Below, one piece after another: positions 12,397-61,330 of a stretch of DNA of 64,000 bases. Numbering within the stretch: the stretch's first letter is position 1; every line of letters begins with the position of its first letter. The position numbers and the translations under genes were made by a program. The notes beneath the pieces were generated by a model, which saw only the letters and a program-made list of their open reading frames with translations, was not told the DNA's origin and did no database searches. Source of the stretch: Flavobacterium crocinum (GTDB lineage: Bacteria > Bacteroidota > Bacteroidia > Flavobacteriales > Flavobacteriaceae). The stretch is from positions 434,001 to 498,000 of the forward strand of contig NZ_CP029255.1 of assembly GCF_003122385.1 (NCBI RefSeq), in the 5' to 3' direction.

Positions 12397-12454
12397 TTGA
12401 TAGGGGATTCGTTATAAAATGGTCTAGTTAAATGCAATTTGTACTCAATTTATT

Positions 12455-12580
12455 ATAGCCCAGATGGAAGTGAAAAGCCCGGAGCTAAAAAAACTAATTT
12501 TTCCTACCAGAAAACAGCGACTGAAAGAAGCTCGTTTTATGGTTTGGAAAAATAGTTTTTTTAGCGAGGACTTGTAACGT
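12455..12580. repeat. Long hairpin element between adk and the CNNM gene
   Basis: Starts with agcccagatggaagtgaaaa and contains facing arms gctaaaaaaactaatttttc (from 12484) and gaaaaatagttttttagc (to about 12564) that pair except for one bulged base, closing a loop of about 45 nt. No open frame. The lead-in resembles a repeat that I associate with many Flavobacterium intergenic regions. Confidence 0.55.
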
Positions 12581-12597
12581 ACAGCTGGAAAAAGCTT

Positions 12598-57595: not shown

Positions 57596-57793
57596 TAAGT
57601 TGAATGTGGTTTAGTTTTAGTTAATCATTTGGAGCGGTCGCAAGTTTACAAATAAATATTCAAATCAAAATGAGATATAGAGCATTTTAAATTCTAATAA
57701 TACTTAAAAGTTAGAATTTTCACATTTAAATAACTTTTTAAACTTTTTCATTCAACCTCTTTTCCCTAAGTTTGCTCAAATACAAAAACAAAT
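57596..57793. promoter_or_regulatory. Promoter region of the eamA leader
   Basis: AT-rich gap with no gene on either strand. TAAGTTTG (57767-57774) matches TAnnTTTG; no clear TTG at -33. Transcription would begin near 57781, 13 nt before the leader ATG. Confidence 0.5.
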
Positions 57794-57826
57794 ATGAGCT
57801 TAAAAGGTTGTCTTCCTCCTCCTTGA
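57794..57826 (+). CDS. Leader peptide MSLKGCLPPP
   Basis: Ten codons (ATG AGC TTA AAA GGT TGT CTT CCT CCT CCT, then TGA) in the 5' leader of the EamA transporter gene. Three prolines before the stop are a classic stalling sequence in bacteria. The codons for GCL can pair with the RNA just before the transporter start. Too short for automatic gene finders. Expression is inferred, not shown. Confidence 0.6.
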   Translation: MSLKGCLPPP

Positions 57827-57833
57827 AATTAAT

Positions 57834-57951
57834 AATACTTCTTTAGTATTGACACTAGACTGAAATTTATCAGTCTATTATTCCGTGTCTTTATCTCAAA
57901 TAAAAAATTATTAATATTCAAAAATAAATCCTCAAAAGGGATAGACAACTT
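57834..57951 (+). promoter_or_regulatory. Structured leader RNA of eamA
   Basis: Small hairpin aatact/agtatt (57834-57850), then a two-part stem gacac/gtgtc (57851-57889) enclosing tagactga/tcagtcta (57856-57877). Downstream gacaactt (57944-57951) can pair with aaggttgtc (57804-57812) of the leader peptide, and aaggg (57936-57940) with tcctt (57820-57824). This would hide the area just before the ATG at 57955. No poly-T terminator, so a translational rather than transcriptional switch is suggested. Confidence 0.5.
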
Positions 57952-57954
57952 CTT

Positions 57955-58845
57955 ATGAAAAAATCATATTTGATACTGCACACCGCAGTGTTACTAGCTG
58001 GTTTTACCGGCGTTTTCGGAAAACTTATTGCGCTTAATGAACTAACATTGGTTTGGTACCGAGTGTTATTTGCTTCAATAATCTTATTTTTTATTCTAAA
58101 ATCATATAAGCTAAAAGGACTTCAATCTTTTTCAGAAATAGCAAAAATTTCCAAAGCAGGAATACTCATTACCATTCACTGGATTTTTTTCTATGCCAGC
58201 ATTAAATATTCTAACATTTCAATTGGCGTAGTCTGTTATTGTTTAACAAGTTTCTTTACAGCCATTTTTGAACCGATTATAAATAAAAAGAAATTTAATT
58301 TAGTTCAGGGACTGCTAAGCTTATTTACGCTTTTAGGGATTAGTCTGATTTTCCATTTTGATTCATCCTATCAACTCGGAATCCTACTTGGAGTAATTTC
58401 TTCCGCATTTGCTGCTTTGTACACGATTTATAATGAGAAATTAGTTCAGTTTTACGACAGTAAATTGATTAACTTTTATCAAATGCTTGGCGGAACTATT
58501 GTTTTAGGATTGACACTGCCAATTTACTTTTATTATTTTCCGGAAGAATCTTTTATTCCGAGTTTAAAAGATACTTTCTATTTGTTTGTTTTAGCTTCTT
58601 GTTGTACTGTAGCTTTATATGTGATGTTTGCAGAATCGCTCAAAAAAATCCCGGCATTTACTGTAAACTTAACTTTTAACTTAGAACCTATTTATGCAAT
58701 TATATTAGCTTTTCTATTTTTTGATGAAGGAAAATCGATTAATTTTTCATTTTATATTGGGATAAGTTTAATTATGACTTCAATTCTATTGCAATCATTA
58801 ATTTCGATTAAGAAAAGAAACGTAGTCGAGGAGCCAATTTCTTAG
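57955..58845 (+). CDS. EamA/DMT-superfamily transporter
   Basis: 296 residues, ten membrane segments in two EamA repeats (VLLAGFTGVFGKLI, LGVISSAFAALYTIYNEKL..., LNFNLEPIYAIILAFLFFDEG-like end). The second-repeat signature NLEPIYAIILAFLFFDEG is typical. Exports small metabolites or drugs; substrate unknown. It has a long 5' leader (about 170 nt) with a stalling-type leader peptide, rare for a housekeeping exporter. A terminator follows at 58861. Confidence 0.9.
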   Translation: MKKSYLILHTAVLLAGFTGVFGKLIALNELTLVWYRVLFASIILFFILKSYKLKGLQSFSEIAKISKAGILITIHWIFFYASIKYSNISIGVVCYCLTSFFTAIFEPIINKKKFNLVQGLLSLFTLLGISLIFHFDSSYQLGILLGVISSAFAALYTIYNEKLVQFYDSKLINFYQMLGGTIVLGLTLPIYFYYFPEESFIPSLKDTFYLFVLASCCTVALYVMFAESLKKIPAFTVNLTFNLEPIYAIILAFLFFDEGKSINFSFYIGISLIMTSILLQSLISIKKRNVVEEPIS

Positions 58846-58860
58846 ACTATAAAAACAGAA

Positions 58861-58892
58861 AAAACTCCTTTAAATTCAAAGGAGTTTTTTTT
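58861..58892 (+). terminator. Terminator after eamA
   Basis: Stem aaaactccttt (58861-58871) / aaaggagtttt (58878-58888) followed by Ts to 58892. Confidence 0.85.
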
Positions 58893-58907
58893 ATGTTTTG
58901 GCTGAAG

Positions 58908-61181: not shown

Positions 61182-61267
61182 GGCGTTTCCCTCCGGGCCG
61201 GGCTGTCCGCTGTATCTTTTGCTTTTTAAAGAAAAAAGCAAAAGGATGCCGCTCCCATCCCTAACGC
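61182..61267 (+). repeat. Compound palindromic element, copy 4 (variant)
   Basis: ggcgtttccctccgggccgg, ggctgtccgc, then hairpin cttttgcttttt/aaaaaagcaaaag, gatgccgctcccatcc, ctaacgc. Same conserved flanks as copies 1-3 with a different insert and no apical tgggcgaat segment. An open frame spanning it (61132-61350) is not a gene. Confidence 0.65.
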
Positions 61268-61330
61268 AATCGTACTTTAAGAACGATTTTAGGCTTCTTT
61301 ATAAAAAACCAAAAGTGCTGCAAAACAAAA

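Follow-up and report, generated by a model that had tools for sequence, protein, structure and literature searches.

A short leader frame precedes an EamA exporter gene

The window, that is the whole 64-kb stretch of DNA that was analysed, carries on its forward strand a gene for an EamA-family exporter and, upstream of it, a short open reading frame encoding the peptide MSLKGCLPPP. At the level of genes and transcript boundaries the locus comprises the following features:

57767-57774, + strand: probable -7 element TAAGTTTG in the promoter of the leader-EamA transcript (position of TAnnTTTG and shuffles)
57794-57826, + strand: leader ORF MSLKGCLPPP-stop, 33 nt (relatives and synonymous change)
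57955-58845, + strand: EamA-family exporter, 296 aa (Pfam PF00892, 110 bits)
58857-58892, + strand: terminator-like hairpin with T-run after EamA (terminator-like matches within 57650-58900)

The first-pass annotation had read the short frame as a leader peptide lying about 130 nt before an exporter gene. Its coordinates and reading proved correct, and 128 nt separate the stop of the leader from the EamA ATG at 57955. A likely transcription start had also been placed 13 nt before the frame, with a sequence at 57767, and the box TAAGTTTG is indeed found at that position, 27 nt 5' of the leader ATG. The motif TAnnTTTG, which we take to be the Bacteroidota -7 consensus, likewise lies, for 45 of 58 unique leader regions, between 20 and 45 nt 5' of the leader ATG (53/58 for the looser TAnnTTT[ACG]), and at this distance in 2.4% of mononucleotide shuffles. 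Here and below, 58 refers to the unique leader-to-ATG stretches used after duplicates had been marked, since the named-genome loci and the genus draw described below overlap. Judged from the promoter box, the leader mRNA probably starts shortly 5' of the leader.

The EamA protein matches NCBIfam TIGR00950 at 69.5 bits, below the cut-off of 230.2, and a sequence search for relatives of solved structure returned none at E 0.01. Both terminator-like matches within 57650-58900 lie after EamA at 58857-58892 and none falls between leader and gene, so that the leader appears to form a single self-contained unit with EamA; for the same reason, a transcription attenuator with an intrinsic terminator was rejected. 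The closest named relatives of EamA are from Flavobacterium species, with up to 97% identity. Carriage of the unit by plasmids or phages was likewise discarded, with a single plasmid relative at 49% identity (E limit 1e-40) and no relatives in phages (E limit 1e-20). None of the 16 largest neighbour-gene clusters listed spans clades; clusters are shared within a close Flavobacterium group (at most 20 loci), among five Sphingobacterium loci, or in pairs. At four loci (L022, L038, L041, L042) the EamA reading is short, at L094 the EamA match lacks its first part, and L042 in addition has a stop at leader codon 3, which may reflect either decay of the unit or sequencing error.

The leader marks one subfamily of EamA genes

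The leader follows a common plan, namely M, four residues, usually C, then L-[P/S]-P-P, with the frame mostly ending at codon 10 or 12. Among EamA relatives taken at one genome per species (45 loci from named genomes), the pattern ATG-four codons-x-L-[PS]-P-P is present in 38, one of which (L042) has an early stop, at codon 3; if the frame must also stay open and end no more than six codons later, the count is 36/45, or 37/46 including the window. The leader of L023 runs to 18 codons. Seven loci are without leader (L032, L033, L035, L037, L040, L043 and L046, the last with only 35 nt of upstream DNA covered), five of them, L032, L033, L035, L037 and L040, at 64-68% identity. In a draw of 398 genomes from the genus, the EamA gene is found in 36 at E 1e-70 or better and the leader in 32 of these; the misses are L094, with its incomplete EamA match, L145 (49% identity), and L095 and L105, which are contig ends with only 17 and 103 nt of DNA 5' of the gene. 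Of 395 genomes drawn from the phylum, 34 have an EamA relative at E 1e-50, and 30 of these were read as loci: the leader is present in the own genome, in G372 (85% identity) and in G380 (66%), and absent in the other 27, all at 49% identity or less. In a class draw (395 genomes), L146 is the only other match at E 1e-90; its upstream sequence is as in L035, without leader. Flavobacterium, Chryseobacterium, Pedobacter, Sphingobacterium, Cellulophaga and Terrimonas are among the genera named in the record titles. One EamA subfamily, from about 62% identity upwards, is thus characterised by the leader, with some members lacking it. On a tree with outgroups, the presence of the leader needs five changes, one of them forced by well-supported branches, and a single origin with later losses is possible.

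In the 64-kb window the leader pattern, with its ATG start, has a single occurrence. It turns up in 1 of 9200 mononucleotide-shuffled upstream sequences, and the 45 related loci, leaving aside their 400-nt upstream stretch, yield none in 393 kb searched over the two strands, or about 197 kb of DNA. With a leader model, the own genome gives a single copy scoring 40.8 bits and a next match of 13.5 bits. On an ungapped leader-consensus score, the 72 leader loci (duplicates included) reach at least 19/29 and 35 non-leader loci at most 17; the 99th percentile of shuffles is 18 and their maximum 19. Among 38 non-leader loci, two (L113, L127) have a short ORF with PP that is unlike the leader, and in six of the eight non-leader loci at 60% identity or more that were read, one ORF, MCKACLSWVS of L037, loosely resembles it. 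The observation of a MSLKGCLPPP leader is thus confirmed as real and not due to chance, and the idea survived a comparison in which absence of conservation at homologous loci would have counted against it.

We also considered the leader in front of genes other than EamA. The leader model matches at E 0.1 or better in 86 of the 395 genomes of the phylum draw, with at most 16 candidates scored per genome. Both strands of 29 matching loci from other genomes (L052-L080) were followed up, and the leader-ORF pattern is present in two, L052 (G372) and L053 (G380); 25 of the other 27 were inspected and have no leader-like ORF. The own genome thus has one copy and the 29 loci have two, and copies before other genes may exist among the remaining matches.

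Peptide residues are conserved while third bases change

The frame ends at codon 12 in 46 and at codon 10 in 10 of the 58 unique leaders, and codon 8 is Ser in 15. The CLPPP-stop originally singled out is therefore one allele, carried by these 10, and L-[P/S]-P-P is a likelier core than 'PPP before a stop'. A stall at the stop codon, i.e. during termination, is weakened as a candidate by the two end positions. All 58 leaders have P or S at codon 8 and P at codons 9 and 10, residues that were demanded by the search pattern; since the pattern covered residues 7-10, their invariance is conditional, while third bases were free. Against circularity can be set these free third bases and the low consensus scores of the non-leader loci. 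By parsimony on the EamA-protein tree (54 leader rows), codon 9 changed 0, 0 and 16 times and codon 10 changed 0, 0 and 10 times at bases one, two and three, respectively, that is 26 third-base changes versus none at the first two bases, conditioned on the pattern. Codon 8 toggles between Pro and Ser nine times. This is a quick tree with long branches, and the trees omit L022, L038, L041 and L042 with their short EamA readings.

Outside the core, codon 4 is K in 42/58, codon 5 is G or S in 51/58 and codon 6 is C in 54/58, and four different Arg codons are found at codon 3. Codon 6 is TGT in all 54 leaders with Cys, and codon 7 is CTT in 55 of 58 for Leu, for which the same EamA genes use CTT in 19% and TTA in 34% of cases. 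Codons 6 and 7 are thereby held at the level of bases, as pairing in the helix P1 described below would demand. The cysteine is replaced by Ser in L036 and L108 and by Leu in L109 and L142; these 4/58 weaken cysteine sensing as a candidate.

Seven of the 58 unique stretches (L002, L003, L005, L007, L012, L082, L085) carry the core MHVAGCLSPPEN in place of MS[FL]KGCLPPP between closely similar flanks. They are scattered on the EamA tree, where this core needs six changes, at least two of them forced by well-supported branches. Comparison of the window with L003 shows agreement in 103/113 and 123/128 columns of the flanks and in 18/30 positions of the leader, and comparison of L003 with L005 agreement in 86/116 and 108/131 columns of the flanks and in 29/30 leader positions. 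A leader core swapped between close relatives, either through local exchange or as an old shared polymorphism, would explain these patterns.

Predicted pairing between leader codons and the EamA start

Folding of the stretch between the leader and the EamA start codon predicts the following elements, to which the putative stall site is added:

57805-57813, + strand: helix P1, 5' strand, within leader codons 4-7, pairing with the EamA start region (predicted; leader nt 12-20, extended by 57801-57803)
57815-57823, + strand: codons 8-10 (Pro-Pro-Pro), putative stall site (P site, Pro9; A site, Pro10) (residue pattern, published XP(P) pauses)
57823-57836, + strand: helix P2, 5' strand, leader end and A/T-rich stretch (predicted)
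57842-57900, + strand: central stem-loop(s) P3 in the leader-EamA interval (predicted)
57907-57921, + strand: helix P2, 3' strand (predicted)
57928-57942, + strand: small hairpin P4 (ATCCTCAAAAGGGAT), abutting P1 (predicted)
57943-57951, + strand: helix P1, 3' strand AGACAACTT, EamA ribosome-entry stretch, -12 to -4 (predicted)

The leader-to-gene stretch of the window folds with a z of -5.5, and the median over the 58 stretches is -3.8. Leader nt 10-24 and the 22 nt directly 5' of the EamA ATG are expected to share about 10 pairs (median), as compared to 0.76 in dinucleotide shuffles; at least five P1 pairs are expected in 54/58 and fewer in 4/58, including L045 (0.1), L142 (0.0) and L109 (2.6). 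Minimum free energy structures contain at least five P1 pairs in 55/58 and at least five P2 pairs in 57/58, and a local hairpin of at least four pairs at the position of P4 in 35/58, with letters that differ between lineages. RNAalifold yielded zero consensus pairs for a cross-phylum alignment of 33 sequences, after which per-sequence folding, cognate-swap and masking tests were used. In 39 sequences, duplexes between leader and start region reach -15.9 kcal/mol for cognate and -13.7 kcal/mol for non-cognate partners and -7.7 kcal/mol with a shuffled start. For 15 lineages less than 80% identical in EamA, a set that omits L042 and EamA readings below 250 aa, the cognate duplex is at -14.4 versus -11.6 (sd 0.64) kcal/mol when permuted, and 0 of 20000 permutations are as low; in five of them (L028, L036, L039, L045, L108) the cognate duplex is no better than the swapped one. 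These calculations suggest that the leader and the EamA start sides have changed together. In the clade of L045, L109 and L142 the leader is kept, reading MYTQGLLSPPRF in L109 and L142, and little or no pairing to the EamA start is expected; control may differ here from that of the other leaders.

A ribosome footprint of leader nt 12-41, corresponding to codon 9 in the P site, was then masked. The mean unpaired probability of the start region (-18 to +3) rises from 0.23 to 0.47, by more than 0.2 in 39/58 and by 0.2 or less in 19/58, and stays at 0.23 when a mask is placed past the stop or, with the same size, 45 nt further on. A footprint over the leader start codon also opens the EamA start (0.52, with a rise above 0.2 in 45/58).

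Searched against Rfam, the leader region matches no family at the gathering cut-off and gives one chance match of 13.6 bits against a cut-off of 106. Elsewhere in the window, the Flavo-1 RNA (RF01705) has two matches, at 12453-12595 (+ strand, 42.2 bits) and at 61192-61270 (- strand, 58.6 bits), the latter near a 5S rRNA gene.

The leader is a probable translation attenuator

Conservation of the peptide, its synonymous changes, the position, the promoter box and a predicted structure that hides the exporter start speak strongly for the original reading as a leader peptide. We consider it likely that the leader is a translation attenuator for EamA, whatever the inducer: a conserved short ORF lies upstream, and by computation the start-hiding structure and a ribosome on the leader rule each other out. 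Structure of the mRNA close to the start codon tunes initiation in F. johnsoniae, in a phylum without Shine-Dalgarno sequences (PMC6847099); for that reason, hiding of positions -12 to -2 should matter. At rest, ribosomes would complete the short leader and depart, whereupon leader codons 4-7 are predicted, with comparative support, to pair with a stretch some 2-12 nt ahead of the EamA start codon and to hide it. When translation is perturbed, a ribosome would stall with its P site occupied by Pro9 and its A site by Pro10, cover approximately leader nt 12-41 and, as the computed accessibility suggests, free the EamA start, so that the exporter would be made. The short nascent chain of nine residues resembles that of drug-dependent leaders.

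The position of the putative stall follows from published pausing motifs. Inverse toeprinting with E. coli ribosomes ranked the strongest XP(P) pauses as DP(P) > GP(P) > SP(P) > AP(P) > PP(P), relieved by EF-P, and erythromycin adds XP(X) (PMC6238534). Whether codon 8 is Ser or Pro, an XP(P) of that list would result when Pro9 occupies the P site and Pro10 the A site, and the stalled ribosome would then sit over P1. In PMC4176338, LPPP and CPPP are described as weak stallers in E. coli, which weakens a constitutive PPP stall and favours an inducer over a constant stall. Counting against the attenuator, the L-[PS]-P-P motif alone, EF-P-relieved and weak in E. coli, may fail to stall. Stalling and its induction by an antibiotic are, like the substrate of the exporter, what we infer from this arrangement. 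If the attenuator is right, we judge the chances about even that the inducer is a small molecule that acts at the peptidyl-transferase centre or in the tunnel and is expelled by EamA, with a ribosome-targeting compound as our leading guess.

A different inducer would leave the attenuator in place. The leader could be a general sensor that stalls when XP(P) bond formation is slow, as with low EF-P activity or uncharged Pro-tRNA, EamA being part of a stress response. This would fit the EF-P relief of SP(P) and PP(P) (PMC6238534) and the rescue of PPP stalls by EF-P (PMC4176338), as well as the opening of the EamA start by a footprint over the leader start codon, for which compare toiL with tetracycline as proposed in PMC12121999. 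However, the weakness of LPPP and CPPP (PMC4176338) argues against it. Conservation, moreover, extends beyond the prolines to K4, G/S5 and C6, and an exporter this patchy (36/398 genus genomes) would be an odd target for a core stress signal. Overall we hold a general sensor to be rather unlikely; given an attenuator, general translation or EF-P stress receives a minor though real share of our expectation, as a matter of judgement.

The exported substrate itself, e.g. an amino acid or amine, might also act on the ribosome-leader complex to cause arrest, in the manner of Trp and TnaC. Amino acids and related metabolites are among the exports of EamA-type transporters, and the unit lies beside different genes in different clades, as would fit a self-contained feedback; the match to TIGR00950 is, as stated, below threshold. 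Only about nine residues would occupy the tunnel, however, and the metabolite-sensing arrest peptides known to us are longer than that. We regard this reading as improbable, and an exported metabolite as inducer of an attenuator is, in our judgement, slightly less expected than general stress.

That the leader region is a structured 5' RNA element, riboswitch-like or a thermosensor, with an incidental ORF would account for the strong folding and for the frozen nucleotides of codons 6 and 7. It is very unlikely, as codons 9 and 10 show the pattern-conditioned excess of third-base changes, codon 3 uses four Arg codons, differing leader cores keep frame, length and L-[PS]-P-P, and no Rfam family is reached at cut-off. 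We give hardly any credence to the peptide itself being the product, a small signal or toxic peptide exported by EamA, as its conserved sequence adjoining an exporter might suggest, in view of the predicted pairing of leader codons with the exporter start, an N-terminal half that varies or is swapped, and EamA proteins not being known to us as peptide exporters.

The translation attenuator thus remains our preferred reading. More speculatively, and with clear doubt, the leaders might constitute an undescribed family of XP(P)-type arrest leaders over several Bacteroidota families, operating without Shine-Dalgarno sequences, in which a 30-nt sensor core is swappable and possibly tunes the same exporter to different inducers. 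The core swaps between similar loci would let one test directly if an exchange of nascent-peptide sensors alters inducer specificity. The leader would also be a natural reporter for finding compounds expelled by this EamA subfamily.

Comparison with known leader systems

Most work on translation attenuation concerns bacteria that have Shine-Dalgarno sites; if true, the present locus would be a compact, conserved case in Bacteroidota, whose short core predicts the stall codon to the residue. A search for peptide strings, EamA leader peptides and Bacteroidetes or Flavobacterium leaders, limited to a set of open-access papers, returned no description of this leader.

The CutF/CruR copper leaders share with it an upstream ORF that contains Cys and has a proline-rich end, followed by a start site within a stem-loop (PMC9973294). 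CutF is an exported protein with CxxxC, whereas the EamA leader mostly has 10-12 codons and one conserved Cys, itself replaced in 4/58. A CutF-type copper leader was rejected on this single, replaceable Cys and on peptides of 10-12 codons except in L023 (18) and L042 (early stop). The RAPP-like arrest peptides and the NSP- and NAP-stop uORFs of Bacteroidota likewise have proline-based C-terminal motifs in upstream ORFs, but these precede genes for protein-localization machinery and differ in sequence (PMC10987492). With L-[PS]-P-P before EamA, the leader was not assigned to the RAPP/RGPP arrest peptides.

Erm-type drug-inducible attenuation at ErmCL, ErmBL and MsrD similarly involves a short leader, a stall near codon 9-10 and a downstream start that is hidden at rest. 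ErmBL stalls at its tenth codon, and the stall on the EamA leader is a presumed one. The EamA leader is unlike the Erm type in preceding a Bacteroidota exporter without Shine-Dalgarno sequence, in its peptide and in the direct pairing of leader codons with the start region, and its inducer is a putative one. By analogy, the EamA leader may work like a drug-inducible leader, and it is a candidate for the antibiotic-inducible class.

We know of no L-[PS]-P-P core in toiL, the uORF of toiL-topAI in E. coli. There, as proposed here, a short leader is predicted to pair with the downstream ribosome-binding site, which a stalled ribosome frees; several ribosome-targeting drugs induce toiL-topAI (PMC12121999). 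In contrast to the EamA leader, toiL controls a toxin-antitoxin operon through a Shine-Dalgarno site and with Rho-dependent termination, in another phylum. Of the mechanisms compared, that of toiL-topAI comes nearest to the one proposed for the MSLKGCLPPP leader.
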